A stretch of DNA of 64,000 bases from an uncultured Pelagibacteraceae bacterium (GTDB lineage Bacteria > Pseudomonadota > Alphaproteobacteria > Pelagibacterales > Pelagibacteraceae). The DNA is taken from the NCBI GenBank assembly GCA_902571055.1, contig CACGAM010000001.1, forward strand, positions 62,001-126,000, in the 5' to 3' direction. Of the stretch, positions 30,958 through 51,756 are shown one piece after another. The notes beneath the pieces were generated by a model. It was not told where the DNA came from, did no database searches, and was given only the letters and a program-made list of their open reading frames with translations. How positions within the stretch are numbered: position 1 is the first letter of the stretch; each line of letters begins with the position of its first letter. Position numbers and translations under genes: made by a program.

Positions 30958-31623
30958 ATGAATAATATTAAAGCAATAATTTTTGACGCTTATGGAACTT
31001 TATTTGACGTAAATTCAGCTGCTGAAAAATGTAAAAATAAAATTGGAGATAAATGGGAAGATTTCTCTAATTATTGGAGAACTACTCAGTTAGAGTACAC
31101 GTGGTTAAGAAGTTTAATGAACAGACACAAAGATTTTTGGAAGATAACTGAAGATAGTTTAAATAAATCTATGAATGTTTACAAAATAAATTTTGAAATG
31201 AAGAATGAGTTGTTAAATTTGTATAAAATTTTATCAACTTTTAGTGAGGTTCCAGAAACATTAAAATCTCTAAAAAAGATGAACTTTAAATTAGCGATAC
31301 TCTCTAATGGTACACCTGGGCTTTTAAATGAATTAGTTGCAAGTAATAAATTAGAAAATATATTTGATGATATATTTTCTGTTGAAAGTGTAGGTATTTA
31401 TAAACCATTCCACAAAGTTTATGACCTTCCAATTCAAAAATACAAAATAAAAAAATATGAAGTTGCATTTTTAAGTTCTAATACCTGGGATGTCTCTGGA
31501 GCAGGAAATTACGGCTATAACTCTATTTGGGTAAATAGGACAAAAAATACTTTTGATAATCTGGATTATGAGCCTAAATTTGAAATCGATAACTTAAAAA
31601 AATTGATTTCTATTTTAAGTTAA
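30958..31623 (+). CDS. Haloacid dehalogenase type II (HAD superfamily)
   Basis: AIIFDAYGTLFDVNSAAEKC, LAILSNGTPGLLNELVASN, VAFLSSNTWDVSGAGNYGYNSIWVNR. Confidence 0.9.
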   Translation: MNNIKAIIFDAYGTLFDVNSAAEKCKNKIGDKWEDFSNYWRTTQLEYTWLRSLMNRHKDFWKITEDSLNKSMNVYKINFEMKNELLNLYKILSTFSEVPETLKSLKKMNFKLAILSNGTPGLLNELVASNKLENIFDDIFSVESVGIYKPFHKVYDLPIQKYKIKKYEVAFLSSNTWDVSGAGNYGYNSIWVNRTKNTFDNLDYEPKFEIDNLKKLISILS

Positions 31624-31638
31624 ATATATATTTCGTTT

Positions 31639-32847
31639 ATGAAAAAATTTATCTCCTATGGAAAGAATGTTTATAATAAAGAGGAAATATTTGCTGTAAA
31701 CAATACTTTAAAAAAAACAACACAAATGGGTGTATCTGTTGCAACTTTTGAAAATAAAATTGCAAAGATTTTTGGTAAAAAATACGGAGTAATGGTTAAT
31801 TCTGGATCTTCAGCATTAATATTAGCTTTAAAATGTTTAAATTTAAAAAAAGGAAGTGAAGTAATTACACCTTGTTTAAACTTTGGTACAGCGGTCTCAT
31901 CAATTATATTAAATGATCTAGTTCCTGTTTTTGTCGATGTAAATGTTAGGACTTTGCAAATTAATCCAGATTTAATTAAAAAGAAAATTACCAAAAAAAC
32001 CAAGGCTATCCTTGTACCAAATCTAATTGGTAATATTGCGGATTGGAAAAAGCTTAAAAATATTGCCTCAAAGGAAAAATTGCATTTAATAGAGGACTCA
32101 GCTGATACTTTGGGTGCAAAAATCAATAATGTATCTACTGGGACTTATAGTGATATATCAATTACAAGCTTTTATGGATCACATGTAATTAGCTGTGCTG
32201 GAAATGGGGGTATGCTTTTAACCAACGATAAAAAAATTTATGTTAAATCAAAGGTACTTAGAAGTTGGGGTAGACTATCATCATTGATTAAAGACTCAGA
32301 AAATATAAACAAAAGACTTGGGATAAAACTAAAAGGAGTTGAATATGATAGAAAATTTGTTTTTTCGGAGATAGGTTATAACTTTGAACCATCGGAGATA
32401 AGCGCATCGTTTGGATTAGTTCAATTAAAAAAATTTAAGTCTTTTAGCTCGATAAGAAATAAAAATTTTAAATTCCATTTCAACTTTTTTAACAGGTTAA
32501 AAGATTATTTTTTAACTCCAATAATAAATAAGGGTGTTTACACTAATTTTCTAGCATACCCAATAATAATCGTACCTAATAAGCTTTTTAACCGTAAAGA
32601 ACTACAAATTTTCCTTGAGAAAAATAAAATTCAAACTAGGCCAATTTTTAGTGGAAATATTTTAAGACATCCGGCATTTTCAAATTTAATTTCAAGAAAG
32701 AATAAGTTAAATGAATTTGAAAATGCTGATTATATAATGAAAAATGGAATTTTAATTGGATGTCATCAAGGTTTAAGTATTAAAGATTTAAAACTTATTC
32801 ATAATAAAATAAAAAATTTTATTAAAAATAAACGTGCAAGAAATTAA
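31639..32847 (+). CDS. DegT/DnrJ-family PLP enzyme, RfbH/ColD-like sugar 3-dehydrase
   Basis: GVMVNSGSSALILALKCL; SFYGSHVISCAGNGG has His where aminotransferases carry the PLP lysine; YDRKFVFSEIGYNFEPSEISASFGLVQLKK. Confidence 0.75.
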   Translation: MKKFISYGKNVYNKEEIFAVNNTLKKTTQMGVSVATFENKIAKIFGKKYGVMVNSGSSALILALKCLNLKKGSEVITPCLNFGTAVSSIILNDLVPVFVDVNVRTLQINPDLIKKKITKKTKAILVPNLIGNIADWKKLKNIASKEKLHLIEDSADTLGAKINNVSTGTYSDISITSFYGSHVISCAGNGGMLLTNDKKIYVKSKVLRSWGRLSSLIKDSENINKRLGIKLKGVEYDRKFVFSEIGYNFEPSEISASFGLVQLKKFKSFSSIRNKNFKFHFNFFNRLKDYFLTPIINKGVYTNFLAYPIIIVPNKLFNRKELQIFLEKNKIQTRPIFSGNILRHPAFSNLISRKNKLNEFENADYIMKNGILIGCHQGLSIKDLKLIHNKIKNFIKNKRARN

Positions 32848-33544
32848 ATATTCAATTATATGCTGTTATTATAACGAAATTAATTTGTTAAAAAATAAGT
32901 TTATTTCCTTTGTTGAAGAAGTTAAAAATTTTCCATTTTCTTATGAGGTGATTTTATGCGATAATAATTCAAATGATGGAACAACAGAGTATCTTAGAGA
33001 GTTAAAAAATAAAAATTTAGAAAAACTAAAGTTCATTTTTAATGACAAAAATTTAGGCAAAGGAGGTTCTATAAAAAAAGCTATAGATTTATCCTTAGGC
33101 AAATACATTGTAATTTTTGATTTAGATGAATATTTGTCTAAAGATTTAATTAAAGCTGATACAATTTTAACAGATAATAATCAAATTGATTTTTTGGTTG
33201 GTACTAGACTTAGACATCAAAAAAAATTTATTTATAAAAAAAATTATTATGGTGTAAGAATTATGACAATGTTGATAAATTATCTTTATAATACCCGTAT
33301 TTCAGACGCTGCAGGAGCTACAAAGATATTTAAAAAATCTGTTTATAGTAATTTTAATATTAGTACCAGTGGATTTGATTTTGAATTTGAAGTTCTTTGT
33401 AAATTTGCAAAACAAGGTTATCAAGTCACTGAATTTCCGATAGAATATTATCCTAGATCATTTGAACAAGGAAAAAAACTAAGAGCATTTAAAGACGGAT
33501 CACAAATTTTAAAAACAATTTTAAAAAGCTACTTTATTAAATGA
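32834..33544 (+). CDS. Family 2 glycosyltransferase (polyprenyl-phosphate sugar synthase-like), GTG start
   Basis: YSIICCYYNEINLL...VILCDNNSNDGTTEYL...NLGKGGSIKKAIDLSLGKYIVIFDLDEY. Confidence 0.85.
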   Translation: MQEIKYSIICCYYNEINLLKNKFISFVEEVKNFPFSYEVILCDNNSNDGTTEYLRELKNKNLEKLKFIFNDKNLGKGGSIKKAIDLSLGKYIVIFDLDEYLSKDLIKADTILTDNNQIDFLVGTRLRHQKKFIYKKNYYGVRIMTMLINYLYNTRISDAAGATKIFKKSVYSNFNISTSGFDFEFEVLCKFAKQGYQVTEFPIEYYPRSFEQGKKLRAFKDGSQILKTILKSYFIK

Positions 33545-34521
33545 AAAAAAACATACTTATCACTGGTGGTTTAGGAATTTTAGGTGCTGCATTAGTAAAA
33601 AAACTTAGTAAACAGAATTTTAATATTTTTATTATAGACAGGTCTAAAAATATAAAAAAGATAAAAGTTTTAGGACTGCACAACTTAAACAAAGTTAAGA
33701 TTATAAAAGGTAATTTTATAAACTATAAATCAGTATTTAAGATTGTTAAAAACAAGAAAATAGGCACAATATTTCATTTAGGTGCTATTACACAAGTTAT
33801 TGACGCTTATAAAAGTCCTGTTGAAACTTTTAATTCAAATATTATTGGAACTATAAATATTCTTGAAACTGTTAGAAATTTAAAAAAAAATATAAATATA
33901 ATATTCAGTTCTTCAGATAAAGCCTACGGAAGTTTATCGGGAAATGCATACAAAGAAAATCACCAATTAAAAGGTAATTTTCCCTACGATGTATCTAAAT
34001 CAGCCTCAGATTTGATTGTCCAGAGTTATGTAAAAACATATGGACTAAAGGCTGGCATAATTAGATCTGGAAATATTTATGGTCCAGGAGACTTGAATAT
34101 GGATAGATTAGTCCCACATGTAATTATATCCACATTAAAAAATAAAAAATCAATATTAAGATCTAATGGAAAGTTGATTAGAGACTATATATATGTTGAC
34201 GATGTAGCTAACGCTTATTTCTTATTGATGAGAAAAATGGCTAGCACAAAAGAAAATTTAAGAATTTATAACGTTGGTTCCAAAGAAAACTTTACAGTAA
34301 TAGAGTTTGTAAAGTTAATGACCAAAAAGATAAATGGTCATGAGATATTTCCTATAATTAAAAACAATTCAAAAATTGAAATATACAGACAGAAACTAAA
34401 TTATCAAAAAATTAAAAATGACTTAAATTGGTACCCTAAATCTAGATTTAATGAATCATTAATTAAAACAATAAGATGGTATAAAGATAATTTAAGTTTT
34501 TTTGATAGTAAATTCCTATAA
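33541..34521 (+). CDS. NAD-dependent epimerase/dehydratase, CDP-glucose 4,6-dehydratase-like
   Basis: ILITGGLGILGAALVKKL; SSSDKAYGSLSG; PYDVSKSASDLI; IRSGNIYGPGDLNMDRLVPHVI; RDYIYVDDVANAYF. Confidence 0.75.
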   Translation: MKKNILITGGLGILGAALVKKLSKQNFNIFIIDRSKNIKKIKVLGLHNLNKVKIIKGNFINYKSVFKIVKNKKIGTIFHLGAITQVIDAYKSPVETFNSNIIGTINILETVRNLKKNINIIFSSSDKAYGSLSGNAYKENHQLKGNFPYDVSKSASDLIVQSYVKTYGLKAGIIRSGNIYGPGDLNMDRLVPHVIISTLKNKKSILRSNGKLIRDYIYVDDVANAYFLLMRKMASTKENLRIYNVGSKENFTVIEFVKLMTKKINGHEIFPIIKNNSKIEIYRQKLNYQKIKNDLNWYPKSRFNESLIKTIRWYKDNLSFFDSKFL

Positions 34522-34540
34522 AATCAATTAATTAAATAAA

Positions 34541-35263
34541 ATGTATACAGTTTTTCTAGCTGGCGGAATGGGAACAAGACTTTCAGAAGAGACCACTAAA
34601 ATCCCAAAACCGATGATTAAAATTGGAAACAAACCAATACTTTTTCATATTATGAAACATTACTCAAAAAGTAATTATAAAAAGTTTATAATTTGTGGAG
34701 GATATAAATGGAAGTATATTAAAAATTTTTTTAACAAATATAAAAATTTAGAAAAAAATGAAAAAGACTGGTTTGTTAATGTTGTTAATACTGGACTGAA
34801 AACTCAAACCGGTGCAAGAATAAAAAAAATCAAAAAATTCTTAGGTGATGAGAAAACATTTTTTATGACCTATGGAGATGGAGTTTCAAATGTTAATTTG
34901 AAAAAATTATTGAGTTTTCACAACAAACATAAAAAAATCGCAACATTGACAGCAGTCAGACCTTTACCTAGATTTGGAAATATAAAGCTTGATAAAAATA
35001 AAGTTTCAAATTTTAGCGAAAAAGATAGATTGCAAGAAGGATGGATTAACGGAGGCTTTTTTGTTTTAAATAAAGAAGTTTTTGACTACATTGATAGTAG
35101 AGAAAATTGTATTTTTGAAAGGAGCCCTCTTCAAAATTTGTCAAGAGATGGTCAATTAATGGCTTTTAAACACGAAGATTTTTGGCACCCAATGGATACA
35201 CTTAGAGATAAAAATTACCTTAATAAGATTTGCAGAAATAGAAAATTTATTTGGAAAAAATAA
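34541..35263 (+). CDS. rfbF: Glucose-1-phosphate cytidylyltransferase
   Basis: VFLAGGMGTRLSEETTKIPKPMIKIGNKPILFHIMKHYS; FIICGGYKWKYIKNFF; TYGDGVSNVNL. Confidence 0.9.
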   Translation: MYTVFLAGGMGTRLSEETTKIPKPMIKIGNKPILFHIMKHYSKSNYKKFIICGGYKWKYIKNFFNKYKNLEKNEKDWFVNVVNTGLKTQTGARIKKIKKFLGDEKTFFMTYGDGVSNVNLKKLLSFHNKHKKIATLTAVRPLPRFGNIKLDKNKVSNFSEKDRLQEGWINGGFFVLNKEVFDYIDSRENCIFERSPLQNLSRDGQLMAFKHEDFWHPMDTLRDKNYLNKICRNRKFIWKK

Positions 35264-35272
35264 TTTTATATA

Positions 35273-36646
35273 ATGCCAGTACAAAAAAATATTTATATTA
35301 TAATTATTTCAGCGTTTTTGCTTTCGATTTTTACAAGTGTTTTAATAATAAAAAATTACGACAAATACGAAATTTCAACTGACGAAATTGAAAATCATAG
35401 AATTATTAAAGGTGATATACCAGATATTTGGATAGATGGACAAACAATTAAAAATGACCTTGAAGCGGGAAAAAATTATTTTGAATCAGGTAAAGAAATA
35501 TTTAGATCCTATTTACCTCCAAGATTAATCGCACTTTATTCATATATATTTAATTACGACTTATTTGAAGATTGGGATCAAAGAATAATAAGCAGTGACA
35601 ATTCAAAAATATTTTATTTGATTATTCAGTCCTTGCTATATTATTTTTCAATATTTATTTTTTTCAAAAAATTAATTAAATATTTTAACCCCAACATTTG
35701 TTTTTTTATAATTTTATTTTTATCTCTAGAACCCACAATATTTTTTTTTCATTCTACTTTTCACACTGAGTCAATTTTTTTTACAATGCAAATTCTAATG
35801 TTAACTCTGTTAATGGACGATATTGACAAAATTAGTAGAAGTATATTAATTGGAGTTTTACTGGGTATTATGTTTTTGCAGAAACTTGTTGCAATTTACT
35901 ATATTATTCCAATTTTTATCTACTATATTATTAAATTAAAATATAAAGCTATAATCCCTTTTTTATTTGTCTTAATTTTTTATGTTTCAATTATTGGTCT
36001 AAATGGATATGGGAATTATAAAAGAGCTGGAATTTTTTATTTTATGCCTCCATCTTCAAAAATAACACTTCATTTGTATTTTCCAAATATAATAATAAGT
36101 AAGGGAGAAAATATAAGTCCTAGTGAAGCAAAAAAGATTGTAGATACCAAAAAAATTGAGTGGATAAACAAAAACAACATAAATCTCAAAAATGAAAAAG
36201 ACAGGATTATGTATTACAATTACCTACAAGATTTTTCAATTAAAACTCTAATTAAATATCCTGTAATCTCATTTAAATATATTGCTTGGAGAACGTTGCA
36301 GACAGGAATATTAAATCCTATTTATGTTTTAGAATTTTTTTATCATGAAAACGCAAAAAAACCGGAATATTTTTTAAATAGTAATTATAAAAAAATAAAT
36401 TTACCTTTGAGAATAATTTATAGTGCTGCTTTATATACAATTGTAATAATTGGTTTCTTTTATTCTCTTAGAAGAATGTCCGTAGCTAATAATTTATTGC
36501 TAGTTTTATCCTCGGCTTATATGTTGGGTCTACTTGGTTGGGCAAATAATTCAAGATATATGGTTCCTATATTAATCTATTTCTCTATTTATTTTGGTCA
36601 TGGAGTAATTTGTATTTCGGAAAAATTGAAAAAGAGAGAGACATAA
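35273..36646 (+). CDS. Polytopic membrane protein, GT-C glycosyltransferase-like
   Basis: Many TM segments, acidic YEISTDEIENHR loop after TM1, placed in the sugar cassette. Confidence 0.5.
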   Translation: MPVQKNIYIIIISAFLLSIFTSVLIIKNYDKYEISTDEIENHRIIKGDIPDIWIDGQTIKNDLEAGKNYFESGKEIFRSYLPPRLIALYSYIFNYDLFEDWDQRIISSDNSKIFYLIIQSLLYYFSIFIFFKKLIKYFNPNICFFIILFLSLEPTIFFFHSTFHTESIFFTMQILMLTLLMDDIDKISRSILIGVLLGIMFLQKLVAIYYIIPIFIYYIIKLKYKAIIPFLFVLIFYVSIIGLNGYGNYKRAGIFYFMPPSSKITLHLYFPNIIISKGENISPSEAKKIVDTKKIEWINKNNINLKNEKDRIMYYNYLQDFSIKTLIKYPVISFKYIAWRTLQTGILNPIYVLEFFYHENAKKPEYFLNSNYKKINLPLRIIYSAALYTIVIIGFFYSLRRMSVANNLLLVLSSAYMLGLLGWANNSRYMVPILIYFSIYFGHGVICISEKLKKRET

Positions 36647-36715
36647 ATGACTAATTTGTCATATATCAAAATATATAAAATATTGATTTTATAAATCCTA
36701 ACTTAAATAAAAATA

Positions 36716-48185: not shown

Positions 48186-48497
48186 CTAATTAATTTTTTC
48201 TATTATTGCTTGTTCTAAACTTTTAGATTTGTTATTTTTTGATTTCTTAACTTTTGTAGAAACTTTTAATTTATCTTTTAAGCCACTTTCAGGCTCCTTT
48301 GTTTCAATTATATTTTCATCTAATGGAACTGGTAATTCATTAAAATCTGGCGGCATAGATAAAGGATTTTTTTTTTGAACAAGAAATTCGTCGCTTCTTT
48401 CTCCCCTACTTTTTCCTTGTAACGCATCTTTGGTCCCTTGACATGATGTGGCAAAGAAACAAACAATAATTAAAAATAAATTTATAATATTTTTCAT
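48186..48497 (-). CDS. DUF3035/BamF-like lipoprotein
   Basis: Lipobox-like CFFATSCQG; RSDEFLVQKKNPLSMPPDFNELPVP; next to lspA. Confidence 0.65.
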   Translation of the reverse strand: MKNIINLFLIIVCFFATSCQGTKDALQGKSRGERSDEFLVQKKNPLSMPPDFNELPVPLDENIIETKEPESGLKDKLKVSTKVKKSKNNKSKSLEQAIIEKIN

Positions 48498-48982
48498 TTA
48501 CTAAGTTTTTTATAATCTAATATTTCCATAAAAATAAGGCAAGTAATTCCTATAGAAATAAAAATATCAGCAACGTTAAATACAAACCAATGATAACCAT
48601 TAAAATTAATATCTATAAAATCTGGGACTGCAGAGTAGTAAAATCTGTCGAAAAGATTCCCAAATGAGCCCCCTAATATGACTATATATATTATCCTTTT
48701 AATACTTTTAGATGCTACCGCTAAGTAGATTAATATAAAATTTATTAATAATATTATAAATGTAATAGCATTATATAAAAAATTATCACTGAAAGATAAA
48801 AGACCAAAACCAATACCAGTATTCCATATCAGTATTATATTTAAAAATTCGTTTATATAAATATTCAGCTCCTCGTTATTAGCAATATTTAGTATATAAA
48901 TTTTTGATATTCGATCTAATGTAAAAATTGAGAAAAAAAGAAAAAAATAAAATACGTATTTGCTATAAATTGATTTGTTCAT
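48494..48982 (-). CDS. lspA: Lipoprotein signal peptidase
   Basis: LDRISKIYIL; WNTGIGFGLLSF; LGGSFGNLFDRFYYSAVPDFIDI; VFNVADIFISIG. Confidence 0.95.
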   Translation of the reverse strand: MNKSIYSKYVFYFFLFFSIFTLDRISKIYILNIANNEELNIYINEFLNIILIWNTGIGFGLLSFSDNFLYNAITFIILLINFILIYLAVASKSIKRIIYIVILGGSFGNLFDRFYYSAVPDFIDINFNGYHWFVFNVADIFISIGITCLIFMEILDYKKLSK

Positions 48983-49000
48983 ATCAAGTTATTTCACCAT

Positions 49001-49079
49001 GCCGCTCACATTTGTTCTCTGTTATTTTCCAACATACAAGAAAGCCGCTCACATTTATTCTCTCTTATTTTCCAACATA
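49001..49079. repeat. Imperfect direct repeat (36-bp units at 49001-49036 and 49044-49079, 43-bp offset) at the ileS 3' end
   Basis: GCCGCTCACATTT[G/A]TTCTCT[G/C]TTATTTTCCAACATA twice; 2 mismatches in 36. Confidence 0.95.
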
Positions 49080-51756
49080 AATTACATTTTTTCCCATTTG
49101 CCTTTGTGGTTGAAGCCTCAAAAGCATTTTTAATTGAACTATCCTCATAGACATCAACTTTTGACGTAATTAGCAACTCTTCAAAATCAAAATTACTAAA
49201 TTTTTTATAAAGTTTATTGTCTAATTTAATATCTACTTTTGCCTCTAAACTTGAACCAATGATTTTTTCAGCTCTTTTGTTTTCTATACTTATATTGCAA
49301 TGATCCCTAATTTTAATAAGTTCTAACCATTTTTCCTCTAATGACTTATTTTTCCATTCCGCAGGAACTTTTGGGAAATTTTCAAGATGAATACTTTTTC
49401 CATCTTTATTTATTATTTTATAAATTTCTTCTGTGGTAAAAGTAAGTATAGGTGCAAACCATTTTAATAAGCAATTTATAATTACGTTAAGTACTTCGAT
49501 ACAGCTTTTTCTTTTTTTTGAAGATTTTGTATCACAATAAAGCGTGTCTTTTCTTATATCGAAATAAAAAGATGATAAATCTACAGTGCAAAAATTTAAT
49601 AATTCTTTGTAAAGATTATGAAAATTATAAATATTAAAATTGTAATGAAACTTAGTATTTAATACTTGAATTTTATTAAGCATAATTTGCTCAAGCTCTG
49701 GGAGCTCATTAACTTTAATATTATTAAAATCTAAGTCTATTACCTCATCATTTAAGTTTCCAAGAAGGTATCTGAATGTATTTCTTATTTTTCTATATGC
49801 TTCCGCATGTTGTTCCAAAATTGAATAATCTATTCTAAGATCTTCAGCATAGTTTGAAGCTGCAACCCAAATTCTTAAAATATCGGCACCATATTTTTTT
49901 AATATTTCCTCAGGTGATATTGTATTCCCAGCAGATTTTGACATTTTGTGACCTTTGCCATCTACAACAAACCCGTGTGATAAAATGCTTTCAAATGGTG
50001 CTTTACCTCTCGTTCCACAAGATTGAAGTAAAGACGAGTGAAACCAGCCTCTATGTTGATCTGATCCCTCTAGGTACATTGATGCAGGCCATTTTAGATC
50101 CTCTCTTTTTTCCAATACAAAGGAATGTGTTGAGCCACTATCAAACCATACTTCGACGATGTCATTTAATTTTTCGAAATCTTCCGCTTTATATTTATCT
50201 CCTAAAAATTTTTGTGGGTCGTCTGAAAACCAACAATCAGAGCCTTCTTTTTCATAAATATTTGCGATATTTTCAAAGACATCATCATCGATAAGTACAT
50301 TATTAGTTTTTTTTGAAATAAATATTGGTAACGGCACACCCCACACTCTCTGTCTAGAAACACACCAATCTGGTCTTGTTTCTATCATTGACTTTATTCT
50401 CTCCTTGCCTTTACTTGGATAAAATATTGTTTCGTCTAAAGCTTTTAAAGCTTTTTTTCTCAAACCATGGCTTTCCATTGAAATAAACCATTGTTGTGTT
50501 GCTCTATGCACTAGCGGAGCTTTAGACCTCCAAGAATGAGGATAAGAATGATTAAGTTTGCCATTAGCAAGAAGTTTCTTCTCACTTTTGAGTTTTTCTA
50601 TAATTATAGGATTAATTTTAAAAATGTGCTGTCCCTCAAATAATGGAATATGTTTTGTATATTTACCGTCATCATCAACAGTTTCTAATGCTTTGATATC
50701 ATGTTTGAGACATAGATTAAAATCATCAGGGCCGTGACTTGGTGCGCAATGCACAATGCCTGTCCCTTGTTCAATTGTAACGAAACGTGCTTCCAACATA
50801 GGTACATCATAGTCAAATCCATCACTTATAAATGGATGCGAACAGATAGTGCCTTCAAAATTCCCACCTTTTATCTCTTTGATAATTTTATAATTTTTAA
50901 TATCACAATCTTTTATTACATTTTCTAAAAGGTCTTTAGCTACAACAATTTTTCTATTCTTAAAATCGTTATCATCATTTAATTTAATAACTTGATAAGT
51001 TAAATTTTCATTATATGCCAAAGCTTTATTTGCTGGAATTGTCCATGGAGTGGTTGTCCATATTACAATTTCAGAATTTTCTAAATCCTTTATATTTGTT
51101 TTTTTTATATTAAATGAAACATAAATCGTATCTGAGGTATGATCCATATACTCTACCTCGGCATCTGATAAAGCGGTTTTTTCTACTGTAGACCAAAGTA
51201 CTGGTTTATAGCCTTTATAAAGACTCCCTTCTTTCAAAAACTTACTCAATTCTCTTACTATTTGAGCTTCTGCATCGAAGCTCATTGTTGAATAATAATT
51301 TTCCCAATCTCCTACAACTCCTAATCTTTTAAATTGATCTTTGTGGGTTTTTATCCATTTATTTGCAAAATCTCTGCACTCTTTTCTAAATTCAACAATA
51401 GGAATATCGTTTTTATTTTTTTTATTTTTTTTATATTGCTCTTCAATTTTCCATTCTATAGGAAGTCCATGACAATCCCATCCTGGAACATAAACTGAAT
51501 CCTTTCCATTCATTTGATGAAATTTAGTTATAATGTCTTTTAAAATTTTATTTAAAGCTGTTCCCATGTGAATATTACCATTGGCATATGGGGGTCCATC
51601 ATGAAGTATGAATTTCTCTTTTCCTTTTGTACTTTCACGTAAACTTTCATACAATTTTATCTGATCCCAATACTTAATTAAATTTGGCTCTTTATTTGGC
51701 AAATTAGCCTTCATAGAGAAAACTGTTTTTGGTAAATTTATATGTTCTTTGCTCAT
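49006..51756 (-). CDS. ileS: Isoleucyl-tRNA synthetase with altered C-terminus
   Basis: ILHDGPPYANGNIHMGTALNKILKD; MSKSAGNTISPEEILKKYGADILRIW; WDCHGLPIEWKIE; truncated C-terminal zinc region KKCNLCWKIRENKCERLSCMLENNREQM. Confidence 0.96.
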   Translation of the reverse strand: MSKEHINLPKTVFSMKANLPNKEPNLIKYWDQIKLYESLRESTKGKEKFILHDGPPYANGNIHMGTALNKILKDIITKFHQMNGKDSVYVPGWDCHGLPIEWKIEEQYKKNKKNKNDIPIVEFRKECRDFANKWIKTHKDQFKRLGVVGDWENYYSTMSFDAEAQIVRELSKFLKEGSLYKGYKPVLWSTVEKTALSDAEVEYMDHTSDTIYVSFNIKKTNIKDLENSEIVIWTTTPWTIPANKALAYNENLTYQVIKLNDDNDFKNRKIVVAKDLLENVIKDCDIKNYKIIKEIKGGNFEGTICSHPFISDGFDYDVPMLEARFVTIEQGTGIVHCAPSHGPDDFNLCLKHDIKALETVDDDGKYTKHIPLFEGQHIFKINPIIIEKLKSEKKLLANGKLNHSYPHSWRSKAPLVHRATQQWFISMESHGLRKKALKALDETIFYPSKGKERIKSMIETRPDWCVSRQRVWGVPLPIFISKKTNNVLIDDDVFENIANIYEKEGSDCWFSDDPQKFLGDKYKAEDFEKLNDIVEVWFDSGSTHSFVLEKREDLKWPASMYLEGSDQHRGWFHSSLLQSCGTRGKAPFESILSHGFVVDGKGHKMSKSAGNTISPEEILKKYGADILRIWVAASNYAEDLRIDYSILEQHAEAYRKIRNTFRYLLGNLNDEVIDLDFNNIKVNELPELEQIMLNKIQVLNTKFHYNFNIYNFHNLYKELLNFCTVDLSSFYFDIRKDTLYCDTKSSKKRKSCIEVLNVIINCLLKWFAPILTFTTEEIYKIINKDGKSIHLENFPKVPAEWKNKSLEEKWLELIKIRDHCNISIENKRAEKIIGSSLEAKVDIKLDNKLYKKFSNFDFEELLITSKVDVYEDSSIKNAFEASTTKANGKKCNLCWKIRENKCERLSCMLENNREQM

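Follow-up and report, generated by a model that had tools for sequence, protein, structure and literature searches.

The end of the isoleucyl-tRNA synthetase (IleRS) gene ileS in the 64-kb stretch of DNA analysed here (the window) carries a repeat that shifts its own reading frame, raising the question of what became of the zinc site encoded there. The source genome was placed in the SAR11 Pelagibacteraceae (Pelagibacter) by named matches.

The repeat at the ileS 3' end

The two 36-nt copies reported by the initial annotation were recovered at 49001–49036 and 49044–49079, identical at 34 of 36 positions and 43 nt apart from start to start. No other local repeat in the window comes close (runner-up 28/36), and Markov simulations (n=20) yielded best local repeats of only 25–28/36. 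TRF at score 40 did not report the ileS-end repeat, probably because fewer than two full clean copies are present. Whilst the 36-nt copies stand, the repeat is better described as two adjoining units of 43 nt (Table 1). The 7-nt 'linker' TTTCTTG matches the unit start of single-copy relatives, TGTCCTG, at 5/7 positions; as TGTCCTG occurs in all three of the nearest relatives (G037, G327 and G177), the linker is most readily explained as a mutated version of the unit start, and the event therefore a head-to-tail duplication of 43 nt.

Table 1. Features of the ileS–lspA junction in the window
Feature	Position	Strand	Remarks
lspA, signal peptidase II, intact	48494..48982	-	97.5 % nt identity to G037
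ileS, type 1 isoleucyl-tRNA synthetase	49006..51756	-	916 aa, C-terminus frameshifted
Proximal 43-nt unit, TGTAATTTATGTTGGAAAATAAGAGAGAATAAATGTGAGCGGC	49044..49086	-	Ancestral frame reads CNLCWKIRENKCER
Distal 43-nt unit, TTTCTTGTATGTTGGAAAATAACAGAGAACAAATGTGAGCGGC	49001..49043	-	New frame reads (L)SCMLENNREQM, then stop
Stop codon TGA, new	49006..49008	-	
Untranslated remnant of ancestral 3' end, 22 nt	48984..49005	-	Would read RHGEIT, then stop; includes old stop (48984-48986)
C-x2-C codons (Cys891, Cys894), first zinc half-site	49075..49086	-	Invariant alignment columns
Third ligand codon, Cys902	49051..49053	-	Invariant in same IleRS alignment
New fourth ligand candidate, Cys907 (C-x4-C)	49036..49038	-	Duplicated CxxC DNA read out of frame

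Comparison of ileS–lspA junctions, as the initial annotation had proposed, supported its view of a derived tandem duplication. G037, G327 and G177 each carry one copy, with the IleRS stop one nucleotide before the lspA ATG, and the old-frame stop of the window occupies that same place, as had been described. Their IleRS proteins end CPVCWKIREDECERHGEIT, CPVCWKIRKDKCERHGQIT and CPVCWKIRENKCERHGELT, respectively (CERHGEIT, CERHGQIT and CERHGELT), bearing out the suggested ancestral end with its C-x2-H half-site; in the window, the repeat has replaced this CERHG(E/Q)(I/L)T end with a frameshifted CERLSC end and left the predicted 3' remnant. G037 and G327 share about 96 % nucleotide identity with the window over the ileS body and 97 % over lspA, whilst G177 shares 85 % over ileS. 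The exact repeat pattern was absent from all others of 399 Pelagibacter genomes, and a general repeat test of 189 ileS ends was positive for the window alone. The junction 25-mer had no match in viral contigs, nor the duplicated region in phages. The duplication was thus seen in one genome only, in collections that hold one genome per species. Together, these data indicate that the 43-bp head-to-tail duplication probably arose on the window's own lineage, after its split from G037 and G327.

The consequences of such an event can be read from its length. As 43 is 1 modulo 3 (14 codons plus one nucleotide), translation would pass into the second unit in a shifted frame and terminate 22 nt early at the new TGA. 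At birth, the distal unit would have read ERLSCMLENKREQM in this frame and the product would already have ended CERLSCMLENKREQM, so that a single step would have exchanged the His of C-x2-H for the Cys of C-x4-C as fourth metal ligand, with the distal remnant untranslated and lspA intact. The present protein ends CNLCWKIRENKCERLSCMLENNREQM, its C-terminal peptide in the new frame being CERLSCMLENNREQM and the new-frame codons of the distal unit GAG CGG CTT TCT TGT ATG TTG GAA AAT AAC AGA GAA CAA ATG TGA.

Relative to the inferred ancestor, the proximal unit displays four changes, comprising CCTG to AATT (three changes, converting C-P-V-C to C-N-L-C) and AAC to AAT. The distal unit displays three, G2T, C5T and G16C. 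Each of the three falls on the third base of a new-frame codon (CTG>CTT, TCC>TCT, AAG>AAC), and two are synonymous. Read in the old frame, every one of them would be non-synonymous, and one would turn the first zinc Cys into Phe. This pattern is suggestive of use of the new frame, although with three events it would arise by chance about 1 time in 27. In total, seven substitutions are present in 86 nt, against an expectation of about 2 at the rate of the whole gene and 3.4 at that of third positions, so that either divergence between the copies was rapid or the event itself introduced several of the changes.

This excess, the restriction of the duplication to one draft genome (82 % complete, 38 contigs) and the lack of microhomology at the junction of the two units might also reflect an assembly or amplification artefact, whereby two strain variants or a chimeric product were joined and the ileS 3' end doubled. 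We consider this unlikely. An assembly stutter would yield identical copies, and the units differ, as the initial annotation had argued from their mismatches; the junction offers none of the overlap that joining two strains would need. Nor can the distal unit represent an intact allele from a different strain, since TTT stands in place of the first zinc Cys codon when the old frame is read. The frequency of short tandem duplications was judged on about 47 kb that align collinearly with sister G037 (identity 93.2 and 93.5 %), where the duplication is the sole indel of at least 10 bp and no second such event was found.

The predicted zinc site of the window IleRS

The window protein scored 887 bits against TIGR00392 (cut-off 621) and carries Pfam domains PF00133 and PF08264. 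Its closest solved structures were all of IleRS1, both by sequence (8c9e, 1ffy) and by fold (1qu2, 8c9e), the best matches in both respects being the enzymes of Priestia megaterium and S. aureus. The class I HIGH signature reads HMGT (residues 63–66; 51559-51570, minus strand), its fourth residue being Thr rather than His, and the protein therefore departs from the HXGH reported for all IleRS1 sampled (PMC10485003). HMGT was present in 103/103 Pelagibacter IleRS and H[IM]GT in five members of other genera of the family, whilst sister family f2 displayed H[IM]GH. HXGT was also found in 9/29 of the best-matching alphaproteobacterial genomes read, a biased sample that includes one member of the family. 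Since other Alphaproteobacteria also carry it, HXGT is a trait of the lineage that limits the scope of the published rule, and not evidence against IleRS1.

The C-terminal zinc peptide of type 1 bacterial IleRS (PF06827, zf-FPG_IleRS), characterised by binding one zinc and being required for tRNA charging, occupies the same C-terminal place, with C-x2-C-W followed by a second ligand pair. The model gave no match to the window tail, and the single-copy sister reached 15.8 bits against a cut-off of 21.3. Of its features, the C-x2-C first half is present (Cys891, Cys894), whereas the C-x2-C second half is absent and the window has a duplication-made C-x4-C instead (Cys902, Cys907). In the canonical peptide the second C-x2-C pair follows a longer linker, as in sister family f2 (CERCWKYFSNLKDNVCDRC); in contrast, the Pelagibacter tail has a 7-residue linker and a variable fourth ligand (H at x2, or C at x4, x5 or x6).

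The C-x3-C arrangement reported by the initial annotation was a miscount, as CERLSC is C-x4-C. The final Cys of this motif, a putative metal ligand, is encoded by DNA that specifies the CxxC half when read in the old frame. Nor is the arrangement an unusual one, as had been supposed, since C-x4-C tails are native to Pelagibacter (CERPNC, CDRANC, CERRSC) and their ligand spacing is identical to that of the window. The lineages that carry them lack any duplication at the ileS stop, and none of them is among the nearest relatives of the window. AlphaFold2 confidence within the C-terminal third was 87 for the window CxxC and 78 for CERLSC, compared with 88 and 80 in a relative with native CERPNC, and fell to 49 beyond CERLSC; the models hold no metal.

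The duplication might instead have damaged the tail, leaving an enzyme that survives on a degraded C-terminus with its zinc site lost or weakened. The last nine residues, MLENNREQM, are unlike those of any relative and fall in the region of low model confidence, and the P-V of the sisters' CxxC loop has become N-L. However, CTLC, CSLC and CNVC loops are found in intact relatives, and all four ligand positions are kept at a spacing native to the genus. The C-terminal zinc motif, a Cys-4 cluster, is described as essential for aminoacylation (PMC4861432, citing Glasfeld, Landro and Schimmel 1996), such that its loss is expected to be costly, and ileS appears to be the sole IleRS gene found in this genome. 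Damage is accordingly improbable, a shade more so than an artefact. Ribosomal frameshifting within the units, whether programmed or spontaneous, by which the old frame would be restored and the CERHGEIT end still made, is highly improbable: the old frame runs uninterrupted across the distal copy as far as the old stop, but it has lost one Cys there, the distal changes all sit at third positions of the new frame, and inspection by eye revealed no canonical slippery heptamer with a stimulator, on which grounds the programmed form was rejected. The duplication is best read as a single His-to-Cys ligand swap that keeps the zinc site, and the window IleRS most likely still binds zinc and works.

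The fourth ligand candidate across Pelagibacter

The fourth ligand was surveyed in the ileS loci fetched from Pelagibacter. Among 187 classifiable distinct ends, His at x2 was found in 93 (about half), Cys at x4 in 54 (about 30 %) and Cys at x5 in 19 (10 %), with rarer types comprising His plus C5 (11), His plus C4 (9) and Cys at x6 (1). A smaller set of ends gave Cys at x4 in 36/132. Every readable Pelagibacter ileS end (about 190) offered a candidate for the fourth ligand beyond the third Cys, whereas a random reading frame of the same DNA would do so only about 6 % of the time. We define the Pelagibacter variant zinc tail as C-x2-C-W-K, then about 7 residues to the third Cys, then H at x2 or C at x4, x5 or x6, and the window tail has this form. 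The single end with a C-x6-C second half belongs to L213 (G400:C6:14601-17437), whose IleRS tail reads CPLCWKINVGPCLRNGKKCLFSEN.

Two ends that fell outside the automatic rule, L190 and L195, were inspected individually. In L190 (G414:C1:200868-204273), ileS and lspA lie in one ORF, with no stop after CTRNNCGLQK before LspA begins MINSLKKNF; this may be an in-frame IleRS–LspA fusion, or LspA may be translated from an internal Met. Despite the fusion, the tail still reads CTRNNC. In L195 (G320:C20:1403-4221), ileS is frameshifted about 80 codons before its end, due to either a sequencing error or a pseudogene. The tail of this genome is otherwise intact, and L195 was rejected as a case of a lost tail, the frameshift lying upstream of an intact CPRHG end.

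Mapping these types onto a tree of 103 IleRS proteins from which the tail had been removed required at least 20 changes between His and Cys, and at least 28 for the five-state type. Recombination of the 3' end may lie behind some of these changes. We lean towards a reading in which the fourth zinc ligand of Pelagibacter IleRS is freely exchangeable in kind and position, with at least 20 switches, yet never dispensable, and in which the window represents a one-step switch by out-of-frame tandem duplication. The window thus adds another exchange to the series, H at x2 giving way to C at x4 through an uncommon mechanism.

Neighbouring DNA and significance

The distance from the ileS stop to the lspA start has grown from 1 nt in the sisters to 23 nt in the window, wider than at any other junction measured (−67 to 18, with starts chosen automatically). 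Translational coupling of ileS and lspA is possibly weakened as a result. Elsewhere in the window, a segment of about 5.1 kb (31600-36682) is missing from sister G037, where its flanks are joined directly. Its putative products, named by eye, comprise a DegT-type aminotransferase, a glycosyltransferase, an NAD-dependent epimerase, a nucleotidyltransferase and a membrane protein, which together look like an O-chain cassette.

A literature search of partial coverage returned no report of such fourth-ligand variation or of a duplication at the ileS end. Compensatory frameshifts (PMC8935012) are frameshifting indels that alter coding genes, and share with the window the survival of a non-triplet indel in a coding gene. 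The window differs in that no second compensating indel is present, the shift is confined to the last 15 codons and the lost ligand has been recreated from duplicated DNA.

The finding is real but modest, as it concerns a variant of a known zinc tail and draws its interest from the genus-wide pattern. It nonetheless offers a recent, readable case of an essential enzyme changing a metal ligand with no obvious non-functional intermediate, whereby duplicated DNA read out of frame gave the replacement residue at once. The ligand pattern across the genus provides a natural set with which to test the freedom of a structural zinc site, and bears on whether His or Cys at this position matters in zinc-poor ocean water.
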